DNA of 45,290 bases. Origin: Candidatus Cloacimonadota bacterium. Its GTDB lineage: Bacteria; Cloacimonadota; Cloacimonadia; Cloacimonadales; Cloacimonadaceae. This document shows, piece by piece, positions 16,454-24,995 of this stretch (its first letter is position 1; the number at the start of each line of letters is the position of its first letter). The notes beneath the pieces were generated by a model, which saw only the letters and a list, made by a program, of their open reading frames with translations, was not told where the DNA came from and did not search any database. Location of the stretch: assembly GCA_020532355.1 (NCBI GenBank), contig JAJBBD010000103.1, positions 1 through 45,290 of the forward strand, given 5' to 3'. The position numbers and the translations under genes are program-made.

Positions 16454-16482
16454 TTGACAAGAAAGACAATAAGTTTTAATTG
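16454..16482 (+). promoter_or_regulatory. Candidate promoter of PEP carboxykinase
   Basis: TTGACA at 16454-16459 is followed after 17 bases by TAATTG (16477-16482), 50 bases before the chosen ATG. The TTG of this hexamer also opens the reading frame, but it is a promoter element rather than a start codon. Confidence 0.45.
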
Positions 16483-16531
16483 CCAATTACTTGATTTTAA
16501 TACCAAAAAAATAGCCATAGATGGAGGAATA

Positions 16532-18262
16532 ATGGCAAGCAAGAGTAGTGCTGATTATTACAGCGACCTCAAAGCTATGTCTCCCATCCGCGCGATTGCG
16601 GAGACTCTAATGAACAATCATCTTGTAAGAAAGGTTGACATTCGTGAAGCCTATGAAATGGCGAAGAAGCAACCAGGGGTAACCATAACGGACATCCCCA
16701 TGTATCCAGAATTTGTAAAACTACACAATCTCCCGGCAGACGCCAAAGTTTTGAATGATTGCCATGGCAACATCCTTGGCAGAACCGCCAAAGCCAGACG
16801 CTTTTACCATCGTTTGGATAGCAGCAAGAAGAACAAGCTGGAAGGAGATTTTCGCGAAGCTGTATGGCAGATGCAGCACTATCCGCTACTTAAAGCCGAA
16901 GCCGTTCTTGGCATGGATGAAGATCTGATGATAAAAGCTACTTTAATCGCTACCGAAAGCGATGCTGCTAACGTATATAATTGGCTCTTGAACTTTGCCC
17001 CATTCGAATCGGTTGCCCAAAAATACGCCACAAGCCCCAAGCTTCCAATTCAGGATATCATTATTATAGCATTTAATGAATGGACATGTGACGATCCTTT
17101 TTACAACAATGTTGGCGCTCCCCAGTTAGCGCTTGTGGATGAAAAACACAATGTGATTGTAAACTTGGGTATGCGCTACTTTGGTGAACGCAAGAAAGGA
17201 ACTTTGACTTTAGCCTGGACTTCTGGTATCCGAATTGGGATGGCTGCCTGTCATGGTGGCATCAAGGAAATTGATTTCGGTACCTGTAAGAATTCCGCTT
17301 ATCACAAATTCGGCAAACGCTCAATTGCCTTCTACGGACTTTCTGGGACTGGAAAATCCAGTCATACCAACTCGCACGACAATGCCGGAACACTTCCTGA
17401 AGGCTTCTCTAAAGTAGTTTTACATGACGACGCTTTCCAGATAGATTTGGAAAACAAGGTATGCCGCGCTTGGGAGCCCACTCTATTTGATAAGACTGAC
17501 TCTCGCCCCACCGATCATCCAGATTGGAAATATGCTTTAGCATTGATGAATCATGCTGTTTTGAATATTGATGGTAAACGCATACCAGTTGGTCAAGATC
17601 TGCGCAATCAAAACGGAAGAGCGCTTTTGGATCGTAGCCTTTTAGGAAACTATGTTAACCGTTGTGCCTTCCCTAAAGCCTTAGTATGGCTTATGAAAGA
17701 TAGCGTTTTGCCTCCTGTATTGAAGCTGAAAGATAAGCATCTTGCCATTGCTATGGGTGCTGCTCTTATGACTCAGCGTAACCGCGCCGAAAATGTTACC
17801 GAAGAAGATCTCAAAAAACTTGTATTCGAGCCTTTCGCCAATCCTTTTAGGGTATATGAACTATACAGAGATGTAGAAGCCTTCATCCACGTTGCCGAAA
17901 ATGGAGCAGAGTTTTACTGCTTCAATTCACGGGGTTATTGGAAAGAATCTGATAGCGTACTAGAAGCTATTCCTCTAAAAACTTCGCTTACTTTACAAAC
18001 AGCAATTCTAACTGATCAGATTGAGTGGGAAGAATGGTCTGCATTGCCTACAGCAATGATTCCCACCCGAGAATCTATCGAAAAGATCCTGCCCGGATAT
18101 TATGATAGATATGATCCAGCAAAACGCGAAAACCTAAGCGAATATAAATCGCTGCTTAAAGACAGATTCCAGCAACGAATAGACTTCTTGAAAGATAGCG
18201 ACCTTAAAGAAAAGCCCGAAACTCAAGATAAGTTATTGAGTGCACTCAAGTTAAACGTATAA
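16532..18262 (+). CDS. pckA: Phosphoenolpyruvate carboxykinase (ATP), divergent
   Basis: This 576-residue protein would interconvert oxaloacetate plus ATP and PEP plus CO2 plus ADP. The kinase loop GLSGTGKS is at residues 269-276 with Lys275. Upstream lie ERKKGTLT and the metal-binding-type His in MAACHGG; downstream, HDDAFQID replaces the usual metal-binding Asp region and RNQNGRALLDR follows. Compared with E. coli PckA the spacing differs, so it is a divergent branch. ATG 16532 has GGAGG directly upstream; the longer frame from 16454 begins in the promoter. It is bounded by its own promoter and terminator, so it is monocistronic. It would link amino-acid or C4-acid metabolism to gluconeogenesis. 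Confidence 0.85.
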   Translation: MASKSSADYYSDLKAMSPIRAIAETLMNNHLVRKVDIREAYEMAKKQPGVTITDIPMYPEFVKLHNLPADAKVLNDCHGNILGRTAKARRFYHRLDSSKKNKLEGDFREAVWQMQHYPLLKAEAVLGMDEDLMIKATLIATESDAANVYNWLLNFAPFESVAQKYATSPKLPIQDIIIIAFNEWTCDDPFYNNVGAPQLALVDEKHNVIVNLGMRYFGERKKGTLTLAWTSGIRIGMAACHGGIKEIDFGTCKNSAYHKFGKRSIAFYGLSGTGKSSHTNSHDNAGTLPEGFSKVVLHDDAFQIDLENKVCRAWEPTLFDKTDSRPTDHPDWKYALALMNHAVLNIDGKRIPVGQDLRNQNGRALLDRSLLGNYVNRCAFPKALVWLMKDSVLPPVLKLKDKHLAIAMGAALMTQRNRAENVTEEDLKKLVFEPFANPFRVYELYRDVEAFIHVAENGAEFYCFNSRGYWKESDSVLEAIPLKTSLTLQTAILTDQIEWEEWSALPTAMIPTRESIEKILPGYYDRYDPAKRENLSEYKSLLKDRFQQRIDFLKDSDLKEKPETQDKLLSALKLNV

Positions 18263-18886: not shown

Positions 18887-20080
18887 ATGACGATATTGAT
18901 TATTGCGACCTTGATCCTGATTTTATATTGGGTTTTAGAGTATCGCAGACATTGCCGAAATGTTGCGGCAATTCCAATCCGCATACATGTTAACGGCACA
19001 CGAGGAAAATCGAGCGTAACTCGCTTGATAGCCGCCGGCTTACGTGCTGGTGGCAAGCGGACTATAGCCAAAATTACTGGCACTTTACCACGAGTAGTAC
19101 TACCGGATGGCAGAGAAGCGGCAATAATTCGATTGCAAGGCGCAAATATAATCGAGCAAAAGTACATTTATCGATATGCAGCTAAAGAAAAACCGGATGC
19201 CATAGTAATAGAGTGTATGGCGGTGAACCCTGTATTTCAATGGATTACCGAAAGAAGATTTGTAAAGAGTACTATTTCAGTAATAACCAATTGCCGTCCC
19301 GACCATCTTGATCTTATGGGCAACACAGTTCAAAGCGTAAGTATGAGCCTGGCAAATACAATTCCATCGAATGGTCTGTGCTACACATCAGAAACACATC
19401 AATATGGCATACTTAAGAAAGTTGCGGAAAATCGAAAAACGAAGATTCACCAGGTAGTCCCAACAGATATTACTGATGAAGAAATGAGTAGATTTCGTTA
19501 CATAGAACACAAAGACAATGTGCAACTTGCCCTTGCTGTATGTGCCAAAGCAGGTGTTCCTCGCGATGTAGCACTTTCCGGAATGCAAAAAGCTTCTCCG
19601 GATCCAGGGGCACTCAAAAAATATATAGTAGAAGATCGAGGTAAAACAATCCACTTTTACAATGTTTTTGCCGCTAACGATCCAGAATCTACAGTATTCA
19701 TAATCAAGATGGTAACCGGCAATTTGAGTGGAGTGCAAAAAATCATTATTCTAAACTCTCGCTCCGATCGATTGTTCCGTTCGCAGCAGTTGATAGATGC
19801 GCTTAGTAGGGTGGAATACGATTATGTGTTACTAACCGGAGAAATCCCCGAAAAAGTAGAAGATTATGCACTTAGTCACGGCATTCCCAAGAACCGCCTA
19901 TTTGCTATGGGGCAGCCTCTTACAGAAGAGATTTACAAGAAAACATGGGAGCTTACGAATAAAGAAGCTCATGTGTTGGGCATTGGCAATATTGCCGGAG
20001 AGATAAAGTACGGAGCACAAATAGTAGCACACTTTAAACATAAAATACCAAAAGCACATAAAGGAGCTGGTCGTGGTTGA
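18887..20080 (+). CDS. pgsB: Poly-gamma-glutamate synthase PgsB/CapB
   Basis: This 397-residue ATP-dependent amide ligase of the Mur-ligase type polymerises glutamate through gamma-carboxyl bonds at the inner membrane. An N-terminal membrane anchor (residues 2-17) precedes the ATP loop VNGTRGKSS (35-43). The CapB-specific NCRPDHLDLMG begins at 135, and NSRSDR lies near residue 287. Length is normal for PgsB. GAGGA precedes ATG 18887. It overlaps pgsC by 8 bases, whose GTG and ribosome site lie within its last codons. It is the first gene of an operon running through at least 23639. Confidence 0.93.
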   Translation: MTILIIATLILILYWVLEYRRHCRNVAAIPIRIHVNGTRGKSSVTRLIAAGLRAGGKRTIAKITGTLPRVVLPDGREAAIIRLQGANIIEQKYIYRYAAKEKPDAIVIECMAVNPVFQWITERRFVKSTISVITNCRPDHLDLMGNTVQSVSMSLANTIPSNGLCYTSETHQYGILKKVAENRKTKIHQVVPTDITDEEMSRFRYIEHKDNVQLALAVCAKAGVPRDVALSGMQKASPDPGALKKYIVEDRGKTIHFYNVFAANDPESTVFIIKMVTGNLSGVQKIIILNSRSDRLFRSQQLIDALSRVEYDYVLLTGEIPEKVEDYALSHGIPKNRLFAMGQPLTEEIYKKTWELTNKEAHVLGIGNIAGEIKYGAQIVAHFKHKIPKAHKGAGRG

Positions 20081-20528
20081 CACAGTAGTACAAGCCGCAG
20101 TTGGACTCGGCGTAATTATTAGTTTGATCTTTTCTGAACTGTTGGGAGCATCTGCCGGAGGTATAGTTGTTCCAGGCTACATTGCTCTACACCTGGATAA
20201 ACCGATGCAGATTTTAGGAACACTAATTATAAGTCTGCTAACTTGGGGCATCATCCGTTTGGTAAGCAAATTTACTTTACTGTTTGGAAAACGCCGAATG
20301 GTATTAAGCATTTTGGTGGGTTTCATTTTGGGATGGGCATCACGGCTTTTGGTTTTCCACGAGTTTACTATTCATCAACTTCAAATGCAATCTATTGGCT
20401 ATATCATTCCCGGTTTAATAGCCAACTGGTTTGAGCGGCAGGGTTTCTGGAAAACCTTATCTACAATGAGTATTGCAGCAATTTTGGTAAAACTGATACT
20501 TATTGTGATTTTTGGCGGGGAGGTTTAG
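20073..20528 (+). CDS. pgsC: Poly-gamma-glutamate synthase PgsC/CapC
   Basis: This 151-residue polytopic membrane protein has four or five hydrophobic helices (about 4-23, 29-63, 70-92, 105-118, 128-149). The family opening with LIFSELLGASAGGIVVPGYIAL (about 17-38) is clear. PgsC forms the membrane core of the synthase with PgsB. The start is GTG 20073 with AAGGAG at 20061-20066, overlapping the end of pgsB by 8 bases. The site for the next gene (GGGGAGG) lies in its last codons. Confidence 0.92.
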   Translation: MVDTVVQAAVGLGVIISLIFSELLGASAGGIVVPGYIALHLDKPMQILGTLIISLLTWGIIRLVSKFTLLFGKRRMVLSILVGFILGWASRLLVFHEFTIHQLQMQSIGYIIPGLIANWFERQGFWKTLSTMSIAAILVKLILIVIFGGEV

Positions 20529-20529
20529 G

Positions 20530-21657
20530 ATGTATCGCAAAATGTACCGTCCCAGCTTAAAATCCGGTTGGTCGTTAATTCTGCTCTTCGTTCTTTCTGT
20601 AATCCTGTATTTAGTAGCCAGCAATAATTTTGTTGAGATTCGTACCAGTAATTACGAAGCAAAACTTGAGGCAGTAACGCTTATGCAAAAGTATTTGGAT
20701 ACTTTGCAAGAGGAGATTCTGGCTCGCAACATCGAGATAGACCCAATTAATGATCCTTTCCAAACAGGATTGATAGGATTACGATTGTCTTCCATAACCA
20801 CAGATAGAGGATTACTTTCTGAAAAACAGGCAGCAATCAATCCAAATATTGCGGCAATATTTGTCGAAGAACTTTCACGCACCAAAGCAAAAGACAAAAT
20901 AGCCGTTGGTATTACCGGCAGTAATCCAGCAGTAAACTTGGCTTTATATGCGGCAATGACTGTTTTAGATTTAGATCCCCAAATAATCGTATCGCTTTCT
21001 TCTGCTTCTTATGGAGCTAATAGAGAGGAATTGACTTGGCTGGATATGGAAGCAATACTCAAGGAAAGGGGATTGTTGAAGTTTGGGGCAAAATATGCTT
21101 CTATTGGTGGCAGCGAAGATCGTGGCATTGGGCTTTCAGATTTTGGAATGCAATCTTTACGTGAAGCTATGAGCCGCAACTCTGTGCCCTTACTTCTAGG
21201 TGCCAATTTGGAAGAAAATGTTTCCCTGCGCATGAGTGCTTATGATGAACTAATAGATAAGGGGAATCGTTACAAACTATTCGTAAACATCGGTGCTGGT
21301 TTGGCAAATGTGGGCAGTGGGCCCAATGCGCGTTTGATACCTGAAGGTTTAAACAGCAAACTTGCCGAACGTAATTTTGAGAAAGAAGGAGTTATGATGA
21401 AGATGGCAAAACAGAATATCCCGGTTCTTCATGTACGCCGAATTCTACGCTGGGCACAGAAATATGATCTAAATCTTTCTTCGGAAGCCAAGCCGGTTCC
21501 AGGAGAAGGCAGCGTATTTAGCTCCACTATTCATAACGTTACAATAGCCGTGATATGTCTTATAATATTGGTAGCTGCAATTATAGCAGTTATTGTTTTT
21601 GATCGTCATGATCGGCGATTTATGAGCAATATTGTCGATCCCGATGACGAATTATAG
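20530..21657 (+). CDS. pgsW: Poly-gamma-glutamate system protein (PgsW type)
   Basis: This 375-residue protein has an N-terminal membrane segment (about 13-31), a large extracytoplasmic domain (containing GITGSNPAVNLALYAA and VNIGAGLANVGSG) and a C-terminal membrane segment (about 338-357). It matches what I know of the poly-gamma-glutamate system protein family found with pgsB and pgsC in genomes lacking pgsA. Its precise role is unknown; it may replace PgsA in polymer transport or remodelling. ATG 20530 lies one base after the pgsC stop with GGGGAGG 6 bases upstream; a start at 20512 inside pgsC is not supported. Confidence 0.8.
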   Translation: MYRKMYRPSLKSGWSLILLFVLSVILYLVASNNFVEIRTSNYEAKLEAVTLMQKYLDTLQEEILARNIEIDPINDPFQTGLIGLRLSSITTDRGLLSEKQAAINPNIAAIFVEELSRTKAKDKIAVGITGSNPAVNLALYAAMTVLDLDPQIIVSLSSASYGANREELTWLDMEAILKERGLLKFGAKYASIGGSEDRGIGLSDFGMQSLREAMSRNSVPLLLGANLEENVSLRMSAYDELIDKGNRYKLFVNIGAGLANVGSGPNARLIPEGLNSKLAERNFEKEGVMMKMAKQNIPVLHVRRILRWAQKYDLNLSSEAKPVPGEGSVFSSTIHNVTIAVICLIILVAAIIAVIVFDRHDRRFMSNIVDPDDEL

Positions 21658-21672
21658 GAGATTTTAACTTAA

Positions 21673-22494
21673 ATGAAAAAAAGAATAAGCATAATAATAA
21701 TGATTTGCCTTATGGCATCTGCAGTTTTGGCACAAAACTATCGTACCCGAATTATGGATTTTGAAAACCCTGGAAGCCGTAGAATCCGCCGGATGGAAGG
21801 AACAAACCATTGGTATTACCGTAGTCTTCCTGAAAAAACTATGATTTTGAACACCGAAGGAATTAACCGTATTCAAATCCGTAGCTTTAGCATCGAAAAA
21901 CCACGAAACCCGCAGATCTTTATCATTATAGGTAAGAACCGTATTCCGTTTGATCTCACATTTAACAATTTTGCAGATGGTTACTACTTCTTTGAAGATA
22001 TCGAATTTGAGATTCCCGAGGATACAGATAGCATTGAAGTTCTTTGCTATAAACGTCATATATATATGCGGGCATACGAGATGGAAGAGATTATTCCCAA
22101 AGTGAAGCCGATAAAAATACCTAATCGACAAATAAACGCTCATGCAGGAATGATAGATATTTCTCATAATTCCACTACTAGTGAATACTATACCTTTAAT
22201 CCTACTCAAGTACTTCGCTTTACGCACAATAATGCACGAGATGGAATAGTATATGTACGAGCTCGATTGACAGATCGCTCATTGCCCAAATTTAGTTTGT
22301 GGCACAATGGTCAGAAAGTACAAGAATATGAATTTAGTCTTGCGCGCACAACTAAATACAGCGCTCAGGGAGTAAAATATCTTACTATCGGAAAAAAGAT
22401 TGATTTACCCAAAAACCCAAATAGCAGCGAGTATGAATTTCGGGCTGAATCAAATCACATGTTTATGGCACGCCCGGTCTTACTCCAAAAATAG
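21673..22494 (+). CDS. Exported protein in the poly-gamma-glutamate operon
   Basis: This 273-residue protein has a signal peptide (hydrophobic residues 5-19, cleavage near A20-Q21) and then a basic, Tyr/Arg-rich, beta-rich mature part with no membrane segment. Several short segments alternate Arg/Lys with aromatics (SRRIRRMEGTNHWYYR, KRHIYMRAYEME). A strongly basic periplasmic or surface protein is well suited to binding a polyanion such as polyglutamate, but that is inference. No family is recognised. It sits 15 bases after pgsW and 8 bases before the beta-barrel gene. Confidence 0.75.
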   Translation: MKKRISIIIMICLMASAVLAQNYRTRIMDFENPGSRRIRRMEGTNHWYYRSLPEKTMILNTEGINRIQIRSFSIEKPRNPQIFIIIGKNRIPFDLTFNNFADGYYFFEDIEFEIPEDTDSIEVLCYKRHIYMRAYEMEEIIPKVKPIKIPNRQINAHAGMIDISHNSTTSEYYTFNPTQVLRFTHNNARDGIVYVRARLTDRSLPKFSLWHNGQKVQEYEFSLARTTKYSAQGVKYLTIGKKIDLPKNPNSSEYEFRAESNHMFMARPVLLQK

Positions 22495-22502
22495 GATGGA
22501 AC

Positions 22503-23639
22503 ATGTATTGCCCCGAAGAAATAAGCAGCGGAGACAAAGTACAAAGGGAAATCTACCCAGATATTCAAGATGAATTGAAGAATCTGGAGGAAAAGAAAAT
22601 CAGAAATGATAGAAGCTTAACCCGAAAGAAAAACTTCAAGCCCATAATACTTTGCCTCGCCCTGTTCCTGTTTGGTTCTGTTGCCGCGCATGCCCAGTTT
22701 GAAGGAGAAATAAGTTTGGGAGCTACATACTCCGATAACTTGTTCCAACTCTCAGATTACGATATCAGTAGGTGGGATAACAATAGTTCAGCCCTAGATT
22801 GGGCTGACTCAACTGATGATCTGAATATATTCAGTCGCATAGATCTGGCATACCCCATTCCCTACCGTTGGTGGACTTTTACGCCTTCAATTACTGGAAG
22901 ATTGAGCCAAAACATTAGTAACAAAGAAAAATATCGAACCGATACTCTAATAAGATTTAGGGCAGATCGATATTATTGGAGTGCAAGTGTGTTATATGGC
23001 TACTATCCCTACATTTACTATCGTCATTACAACGATGGCGATGGTACCGATCAAGCGGAAAAATATTCCTACAATCGTAACTATTACCGAGCAGATTTGA
23101 TTGTGCGTCCCATCAAAAACCTCACTGCATTCAGCAATATACGTTATGAAGACCTTTATTACAACCAATATTTTACTGAGGCAGACGGTAATCGTGTGAG
23201 TACGGAAACGGGGCTTCGATACAGATTCCCCGCCTTTACAGTACAGGGCTCTTATACTTACAGAAGCTACGATAATACCAACTTTGCCAAACTGAATGAA
23301 GATGATGGCAGTTATGATAGCAACATCTATAGAGGTGTGCTGCGGATGAAATCTATGCCACTGAGCGGTGACAGCATACAAAAACAAAGCTGGCAACCCT
23401 ATCTGGAACTCAGCCTGGAAGACCGCTTTTATCAAGGTAATAGCGAATGGTACGGTGGTAGAGAATACAGATTTTACAATACTATAGCCGGCTTGGATTT
23501 TAAACTTCATCCAGATTGGAAATTATCTCTTGACTACTTGCATATATTCAGAAATGTAGAGTCTCCGAATGAGAGTGTGCTAAGGCTTAAAGAGTTTAGC
23601 GAAAACCGCTTCTCTGCTTCAGTAAGCTATAAATTCTAA
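22503..23639 (+). CDS. Outer-membrane beta-barrel protein in the poly-gamma-glutamate operon
   Basis: This frame encodes 378 residues. A signal sequence (about 47-64, IILCLALFLFGSVAAHA then Q) is followed by alternating aromatic/polar strands such as RYYWSASVLYGYYPYIYYRH, ending in FSASVSYKF. A terminal Phe and regular strands indicate an outer-membrane barrel of about twelve to fourteen strands. The frame starts with about 45 charged residues before the signal sequence. A strong GGAGG at 22586-22590 stands 8 bases before ATC 22599 in frame, which would give a normal signal peptide. Either the leader is unusual or initiation is at that codon. The gene is 8 bases after the preceding exported protein and is probably part of the pgs operon. 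Confidence 0.8.
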   Translation: MYCPEEISSGDKVQREIYPDIQDELKNLEEKKIRNDRSLTRKKNFKPIILCLALFLFGSVAAHAQFEGEISLGATYSDNLFQLSDYDISRWDNNSSALDWADSTDDLNIFSRIDLAYPIPYRWWTFTPSITGRLSQNISNKEKYRTDTLIRFRADRYYWSASVLYGYYPYIYYRHYNDGDGTDQAEKYSYNRNYYRADLIVRPIKNLTAFSNIRYEDLYYNQYFTEADGNRVSTETGLRYRFPAFTVQGSYTYRSYDNTNFAKLNEDDGSYDSNIYRGVLRMKSMPLSGDSIQKQSWQPYLELSLEDRFYQGNSEWYGGREYRFYNTIAGLDFKLHPDWKLSLDYLHIFRNVESPNESVLRLKEFSENRFSASVSYKF

Positions 23640-23655: not shown

Positions 23656-23970
23656 ATGGAGTTTCACCAAGAGAATGATCGCAAAAAAATACGTGAGTTC
23701 CTTAATTTGGTTGAGAATCACAAAGTAGAACTGCGTCACTATAAAAAGCCGGTATTGGTTTGGACAACTTTTGATGGAGTATGCCATTACGCATTTTGGG
23801 AAGATGAAACATTAAGCAAATTCGGTTTTGCCAATGTAGACGGATGGGATTACGAAGAAGACCTTCTTTTTTGCCCGGATTGGATTGCAGGAAACGAAGA
23901 CGATGAAGATTTTGATGATGACGAAGATGGCGAGGAATTTGAGACATTTTGTGAACTAATTAAAAAATGA
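23656..23970 (+). CDS. Small acidic protein, unknown function
   Basis: This 104-residue cytoplasmic protein has a basic N-terminal third, a central aromatic beta-like part (KPVLVWTTFDGVCHYAFWED) and a C-terminal Asp/Glu run (about 82-95, DDEDFDDDEDGEE). GGAGGT precedes ATG 23656, and its stop overlaps the gpsA start by 4 bases, so it is translated with gpsA. I do not recognise a family. The acidic stretch could be a nucleic-acid mimic or a protein-contact tail. Confidence 0.75.
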   Translation: MEFHQENDRKKIREFLNLVENHKVELRHYKKPVLVWTTFDGVCHYAFWEDETLSKFGFANVDGWDYEEDLLFCPDWIAGNEDDEDFDDDEDGEEFETFCELIKK

Positions 23971-24995
23971 AAATATCGGTAATTGGCGGTGGCGGATGGG
24001 GCTTGGCCTTAGCCAAATTGCTTACAGAAAACAAGCATGAAGTATTGGTTTGGGAATATAATGCCAGTTATTTATCCTCACTCAAAGAAACAAATAGCAA
24101 TCCAACCCTGTTGAAGGATATAACCTTACCACTCTCCATTAAATACACAGATTCATTTTCCACTATAGCTAACTTTGAAAGCACGATCATTCTACTGGCT
24201 ACCCCATCACAGTTTATTCGTAAAACGCTTCGATCCATACCCAATGAAGTAGCTCAAAAGATTTGGCAAAATCAAAACTTGATCGCTCTTGTAAATGTTG
24301 CAAAAGGCATTGAAGAACAGAGCCTTAAGACAATTGATCAAATCCTCTATGATGAATTACCTCATGAAATGCACCACAAAATTTGCGCTTTGTCGGGACC
24401 AAGTCATGCAGAAGAAGTTGCTCGAGGTATTCCTACTACAGTAGTTATTGCCGGTCAGAATGAAGAATTATTAATGCAATTGCAAGAAGTGTTTTCAAAT
24501 TCATATTTTCGTGTTTACCGCAGCTTGGATATAATTGGAGTAGAAATTGGTGGCGCGGTAAAAAATATCATCGCTATTGCCGCGGGCATAGTAAGTGGGT
24601 TGGGGTACGGCGACAATACACTTGGAGCTCTGCTAACCCGCGGAATTGTGGAAATAGGCAGATTGGGCAAAGCTATGCATGCCCAAACCGAAACATTCTT
24701 AGGGCTTTCTGGCATTGGTGATCTTATTACTACAGCGATCAGCTTGAACAGTCGCAACCGTTATGTGGGATACGAAATTGGCAAAGGAAAAAGCCTCCAG
24801 GAGATTCAGGATTCGATGGCAATGGTAGCTGAGGGTATTGCTAGCACAAGAGCTGTTTATCTATTGGCTGCTAAGCTGGGAGTAGAAATGCCTATTGTAT
24901 GCCAAGTATATGAAATTTTGTATGAGCACAAAGATCCGTTCACTGCAATGCGAGATTTAATGTCGCGAGATCTCAAAGCGGAGTTTAAGCAATAA
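23967..24995 (+). CDS. gpsA: Glycerol-3-phosphate dehydrogenase [NAD(P)+]
   Basis: This 342-residue cytoplasmic enzyme reduces dihydroxyacetone phosphate to sn-glycerol 3-phosphate for phospholipid synthesis. The Rossmann loop GGGGWGLALA is near residues 7-16. The catalytic Lys lies in GGAVKNIIAIAAG (about 195-207), and LSGPSHAEEVARG (about 137-150) is a family signature. The C-terminal domain with GLSGIGDL is normal. The start overlaps the previous gene by 4 bases. Confidence 0.95.
   Translation: MKISVIGGGGWGLALAKLLTENKHEVLVWEYNASYLSSLKETNSNPTLLKDITLPLSIKYTDSFSTIANFESTIILLATPSQFIRKTLRSIPNEVAQKIWQNQNLIALVNVAKGIEEQSLKTIDQILYDELPHEMHHKICALSGPSHAEEVARGIPTTVVIAGQNEELLMQLQEVFSNSYFRVYRSLDIIGVEIGGAVKNIIAIAAGIVSGLGYGDNTLGALLTRGIVEIGRLGKAMHAQTETFLGLSGIGDLITTAISLNSRNRYVGYEIGKGKSLQEIQDSMAMVAEGIASTRAVYLLAAKLGVEMPIVCQVYEILYEHKDPFTAMRDLMSRDLKAEFKQ

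Follow-up and report, generated by a model that had tools for sequence, protein, structure and literature searches.

How does a polyglutamate chain, made at the inner membrane, leave a cell that is also enclosed by an outer membrane? The question is raised by a five-gene block at positions 18887-23639 of a 45,290-nucleotide stretch of Cloacimonadota DNA (contig JAJBBD010000103.1 of assembly GCA_020532355.1; the whole stretch is called the window here), in which pgsB, pgsC and pgsW are followed by a gene for a basic secreted protein, here called X, and by one for an outer-membrane beta-barrel, here called OMB. A sequence-only reading of the window had proposed that the two additional genes export the polymer. 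Our analysis makes it probable that the block is a polyglutamate operon with its own exit, in which an inner-membrane synthase is joined by X as a periplasmic guide and by OMB as an outer-membrane pore. The genes of the block are as follows.

18887..20080, plus strand: pgsB, poly-gamma-glutamate synthase, a Mur-ligase-like amide ligase (TIGR04012, 407 bits against a cut-off of 223)
20073..20528, plus strand: pgsC, membrane partner of the synthase (TIGR04011, 133 bits against a cut-off of 96; PF14102, 131.8 bits)
20530..21657, plus strand: pgsW, "poly-gamma-glutamate system protein" (TIGR04332, 308 bits; the longest open reading frame (ORF) starts at TTG 20512)
21673..22494, plus strand: X, secreted basic protein with two beta-sandwich domains, proposed to bind and guide the polymer in the periplasm (AlphaFold (AF2) model, family, isoelectric point (pI))
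22503..23639, plus strand: OMB, outer-membrane beta-barrel, proposed exit pore (AF2 model mc6cda89841eb, foldseek, linkage to pgsW)

The synthase core

The coordinates, gene order and lengths given by the sequence-only reading were all reproduced, as were its gaps of 15 bases between pgsW and X and 8 bases between X and OMB; pgsC overlaps pgsB by 8 bases. PgsW has one hydrophobic segment at each end. Its start is probably ATG 20530 rather than TTG 20512; a Shine-Dalgarno-like GGGGAGG precedes this ATG, and relatives start with M[YF]xPS.

As in the PgsBCA(E)/CapBCA(E) systems of Bacillus, Staphylococcus and Fusobacterium, a PgsB ligase at equivalog level is encoded beside its PgsC partner, in the same order and from the same families (TIGR04012 and TIGR04011). 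The window differs from these systems in having PgsW (TIGR04332) in the slot of PgsA/CapA, as other PgsBCW systems do, in lacking ggt/CapD and in carrying two extra envelope genes. With 2.69 Mb and 99.6% completeness, the window genome is an almost finished draft, and no match to PF09587 was found anywhere in it, in the operon or outside, which agrees with the absence of pgsA/capA noted from the window alone. A gamma-glutamyltranspeptidase (ggt/CapD) was not found in this genome either. Across the phylum, a CapA domain (PF09587) occurs somewhere in 96 of 125 genomes. An ORF of about 1000 residues with a CapA/PGA_cap domain is present in many Cloacimonadota (G001, G004 and most), though not in the window genome; it lies near the operon in genus g2 and elsewhere in other genomes.

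Conservation of the block within Cloacimonadota

PgsB was matched in 114 of the 125 phylum genomes, among them 69 of the 71 best assemblies, and exceeded the cut-off in 104 genomes; OMB was detected in 106, including 67 of the 71 best, nearly always as a single copy. We tabulated 105 neighbourhoods for gene order and counted linkage at the 84 loci with at least 1.6 kb of contig beyond pgsW. OMB was present beyond pgsW at 83 of these 84 loci and X at 80, and the gap between X and OMB had a median of half a base and did not exceed 50 bases in 81 of 82 pairs. The genes flanking pgsBCW-X-OMB differ between families, and the block itself is therefore what selection keeps. No further outer-membrane gene was linked to pgsBCW across the phylum in this tabulation. 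Seven genomes that had OMB without a PgsB match above the cut-off were considered as counter-examples and rejected, since in all seven the sequence breaks off there, at the edge of a contig or at an N gap. The sequence-only reading would have failed if the two genes had rarely been adjacent to pgsBCW in relatives; the counts show the opposite, and the arrangement recurs in other diderm phyla.

Distribution outside the phylum

When 84,980 species genomes were scanned using an alignment of PgsW headed by the Cetobacterium protein, 80 loci were obtained; they are the top matches of a single query and do not sample bacteria evenly. The order pgsB-C-W-X-OMB was found again in Bacteroidales, Ignavibacteria, KSB1, Krumholzibacteriota, Zixibacteria, Fermentibacteria, WOR-3, Latescibacterota and others. 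Among 346 sampled Bacteroidota, PgsW was present in 14 and OMB in six, all six within those 14 and all with OMB near pgsW (Fisher P = 1.3e-9); a broader profile added a seventh Bacteroidota OMB (L257). The other Bacteroidota carriers of PgsW fall mostly in a separate PgsW clade, and several of them have a gamma-glutamyltranspeptidase-like gene upstream (Pfam check in one). In the PgsW tree, a single clade (81 rows, SH-aLRT 98) takes in every carrier of X or OMB, and at least six changes of OMB state are needed. A plasmid collection gave one PgsW match, from Cetobacterium.

The PgsBCW systems of Clostridia, Cetobacterium and some Bacteroidota share the PgsB-PgsC-PgsW core with the window, but they have no detected X or OMB and their PgsW lies outside the X/OMB clade; some carry ggt, TRAP-transporter or desuccinylase genes. 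A second PgsBCW subtype (L137, L195, L255-L261) is without X and OMB and has gamma-glutamyltranspeptidase in several loci, and TRAP-transporter and succinylglutamate-desuccinylase genes occur at the Cetobacterium and deltaproteobacterial pgsBCW loci. Two Flavobacteriia loci (L201, 10736-11635; L226, 9998-10816) have X after pgsW and then a shorter barrel-like protein with no match to the OMB profile, which suggests that the barrel is swappable.

Gene fusions

In three genomes (L035, L067 and L129) X and OMB form one reading frame of 639-642 residues, in which X accounts for roughly the first 290 residues and the barrel for the remainder, and a further fusion with additional X-type domains was found at L193. 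The N-terminus of outer-membrane barrels is periplasmic. Because X precedes the barrel in these fusions, it is placed in the periplasm, where the sequence-only reading had put it. At L200, a single frame encodes both PgsW and X, and a second hydrophobic stretch that separates the two would bring X back to the periplasm; this case stands alone, comes from a metagenome-assembled genome and calls for caution. Long "fusions" in the high-GC loci L186, L188, L198 and L235 were rejected as open frames that overlap pgsW in a different frame.

Structure of X and OMB

X has 273 residues and a signal peptide, and the mature protein has a net charge of +8 and a pI of 9.4. Basicity is a property of the family (median pI 9.57; 88% of members basic), which forms a single blast-linked group throughout the phylum; its profile was made from separate X ORFs, with the fused X-OMB ORFs left out. 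Searches of profile families gave no match to X above the cut-off. The AF2 model (predicted local distance difference test score (pLDDT) 94.8) shows two beta-sandwich domains, the relative orientation of which is uncertain (predicted template modelling score 0.64), and in foldseek these were most like carbohydrate-binding modules (CBMs). Kinship to Cry/Vip proteins and glycoside hydrolases, also returned by foldseek, was rejected at TM-scores of 0.2-0.28, and we took these matches as generic CBM-like sandwiches. A match to SecB (E 0.036) was far under the cut-off and was dismissed.

OMB has 378 residues and ends in Phe. Its barrel character, which had been recognised from features of the reading frame, was confirmed by an AF2 model with 14 strands over residues 67-377 (mean pLDDT 86.6). 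In the window's family, about 42 disordered, low-confidence residues stand ahead of the signal peptide (window 22503-22630), whereas other families are without them. The nearest solved folds in foldseek were OmpG (3e-10) and CymA (1e-8) at 12-16% identity, with BcsC and AlgE lower. The relation to OmpG and CymA is one of fold only, and searches of PDB sequences with the X and OMB profiles returned nothing meaningful. Membership of the barrel in a known unrelated porin family would have spoken against the proposal, and profile-family searches matched OMB to no known porin family above the cut-off. The best member reached EpsL (TIGR03014) at E 9e-5, with 21.7 bits against a cut-off of 275; this weak match occurs in 4 of 66 phylum members, and some OMB proteins are also sub-threshold to BBP2_2 (PF10082).

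Inward-facing positions of the barrel, as deduced from the alternation of hydrophobicity, are 19% Lys/Arg and 15% Asp/Glu, giving a charged lumen. Conservation is highest in the extracellular loops (2.41 bits), lower in the strands (2.05) and lowest in the periplasmic turns (1.71). Since this order is unusual for surface loops, it suggests a conserved gate or rim. The invariant residues are N79, D105, N140, Y190, R320 and R350; K363 is conserved as well.

Neighbouring genes

Two genes follow the block in the window.

23656..23970, plus strand: small acidic protein with no predicted signal, directly after OMB in most loci of families f1-f9
23967..24995, plus strand: gpsA, glycerol-3-phosphate dehydrogenase, downstream neighbour (NF000942, 395 bits)

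The small acidic protein accompanies OMB in the nearer families and remains its neighbour also at L155 and L156, where OMB lies away from the pgs operon. gpsA adjoins the operon in near families only and is probably outside the system. Upstream, at window 16454-18262, a divergent homologue of ATP-type phosphoenolpyruvate carboxykinase (PF01293, 44.6 bits) lies beside a serine-palmitoyltransferase-like gene, an arrangement seen in close relatives only.

A C25 (gingipain/PorU-like) peptidase is encoded near the cassette in other families and phyla, either immediately upstream of it or a few genes further downstream; several of these peptidases bear a type IX sorting tail. A lipoprotein-like gene comes after OMB in several lineages, and LVIVD beta-propeller repeats were confirmed in it at L165 and L079.

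C25 peptidases: L165, 2412-6239; L038, 3-2990; L041, 9138-12101; L079, 5139-9200; L214, 8116-12243; L236, 12007-15636
Lipoprotein-like genes: L165, 11413-12426; L079, 4109-5125; L214, 7110-8132; L236, 11019-12002

The peptidase might free the polymer, anchor it or itself be anchored by it, and the LVIVD lipoprotein is likely a surface or periplasmic partner. In Bacillus, CapD or PgsS has the role of releasing or anchoring the polymer.

A proposed route and its alternatives

We propose that PgsB and PgsC would polymerise glutamate at the inner membrane using ATP, as is known from their homologues, while PgsW, a membrane protein anchored at both ends with a periplasmic domain, may occupy the place of PgsA/CapA. 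X, a basic tandem beta-sandwich, would catch the polyanion as it emerges into the periplasm and pass it onward. OMB, to judge from its structure and genetics, would let the chain out; its barrel has 14 strands, a charged lumen and an extracellular rim that is conserved. Both the binding of the polymer by X and its conduction by OMB are our inference from the combined evidence. The general plan resembles AlgK-AlgE, PgaA, BcsC and PelB, in which an inner-membrane synthase is combined with a periplasmic binding protein and an outer-membrane barrel, sometimes fused; in the synthase-dependent systems for alginate, poly-N-acetylglucosamine and cellulose, these two components complete the path (PMC9734138, PMC9601211). 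The window operon likewise has an outer-membrane beta-barrel among the synthase genes. It differs in that its polymer is a polyamide and its periplasmic part consists of two beta-sandwiches. EpsL/BBP2_2 and EpsX/WzpX are also outer-membrane barrels within polymer export loci, and OMB has the weak similarity to EpsL and PF10082 described above. However, those matches are far under the cut-offs, the window operon has no OPX protein, and EpsX has 18 strands. OmpG and CymA, although closest in fold as 14-strand monomeric barrels, differ in importing oligosaccharides.

Several observations weigh against the proposed route. OMB has 14 strands, not the 16-18 of the AlgE/PgaA/BcsC type, and X is all-beta, with no TPR match in the family searches; because of these two differences the X/OMB module is not a member of the synthase-dependent exporter group, though similar in working. 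OMB is acidic overall (median pI 5.6). In families f4 and f8 and at L079, OMB has no X beside it, so X is dispensable or replaced there, and at L036 and L155 OMB is placed elsewhere in the genome. X and OMB were not at the pgsW locus in Myxococcales, Burkholderiales, a deltaproteobacterium and Cetobacterium (Fusobacteriota). Since pgsBCW occurs with neither X nor OMB in Cetobacterium, Myxococcales and Burkholderiales, the module is not a necessity for cells with an outer membrane. Neither OMB nor X was found in the 22 PgsW genomes of Bacillota (Clostridia), as would be expected if both serve the outer membrane, but the profiles were built from Cloacimonadota and the set held no positive control.

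These points must be set against what other explanations can account for. X and OMB might keep the polymer in place at the surface, or arrange it there, like a Wzi-type anchor or a lectin barrel, with export through another, unlinked pore. The CBM-like sandwiches of X and the conserved residues at the extracellular rim of OMB would suit such a role, and Wzi, a capsule-linked barrel, is needed for anchoring and not for export (PMC9601211). We nevertheless consider this explanation unlikely, because the fusions place X in the periplasm, where it cannot hold polymer outside, because the tabulated neighbourhoods show no further outer-membrane gene linked to pgsBCW throughout the phylum, and because the nearest structures to OMB are open monomeric pores. 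It is also very unlikely that the PgsBC of this clade makes a gamma-linked product of another kind, or chains that are shorter, for instance to decorate or anchor type IX-exported proteins, and that X and OMB serve that product. The C25 peptidase, often with its type IX sorting tail, and the LVIVD lipoprotein do flank the cassette in other families and phyla, but the window's own family has no peptidase next to the operon, PgsB and PgsC score far over their equivalog cut-offs, and Cloacimonadota flocs stain as polyglutamate with 4',6-diamidino-2-phenylindole (DAPI).

An ordinary small-molecule porin, co-transcribed by chance, is strongly disfavoured and has hardly any probability in our estimation. 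The 14-strand fold of the enterobacterial OmpG and CymA is used for oligosaccharide uptake, which is what such a porin might do; against it stand the linkage at 83 of 84 loci, the X-OMB fusions, the recurrence across phyla, the Bacteroidota association (P = 1e-9 in round figures) and the mostly single-copy occurrence of OMB. The polyglutamate operon with its own exit is thus the interpretation we retain, and the sequence-only reading is supported overall by the linkage, the cross-phylum recurrence, the lack of a porin family, the clostridial absence and the X-OMB fusions. It needs correcting on two points: polyglutamate synthesis in this phylum had been published before, and the module is one diderm solution among others, as several diderm lineages with pgsBCW (Fusobacteriota, Myxococcota, Burkholderiales) are without X and OMB. 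A much broader version would see here an envelope-spanning secretion machine for an amino-acid homopolymer, common to many diderm phyla, derived from an early gene set and working, in many lineages, together with a C25 peptidase secreted by the type IX system and an LVIVD surface lipoprotein, which would free or anchor the polymer on the outside. We regard this extension as unlikely.

Relation to earlier work and significance

Polyglutamate genes in Cloacimonadota have already been described in two papers (PMC8542988, PMC13082233), one of which reported cells embedded in DAPI-stained extracellular polyglutamate and a CapB-CapC-CapA operon in one species (PMC13082233). The third gene differs, being pgsW in the window genome and capA in that species, and a search of the text found no mention of the outer membrane or of export. 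Fusobacterium nucleatum is listed in reviews as the Gram-negative producer of polyglutamate (PMC3815933). In the literature searched, with most subscription journals outside its scope, we found no outer-membrane step or component for polyglutamate, and "pgsW" had unrelated uses only. The synthesis of polyglutamate in the phylum is therefore already published, whereas the outer-membrane arm formed by X and OMB was not found in that literature.

The locus supplies two concrete, conserved candidates for the passage of polyglutamate across an outer membrane. They occur in Cloacimonadota, where a polyglutamate matrix has been proposed to support syntrophic methane-producing consortia, and also in Bacteroidota and related phyla, and the presence of X and OMB provides a simple genomic marker that divides PgsBCW systems into two kinds.

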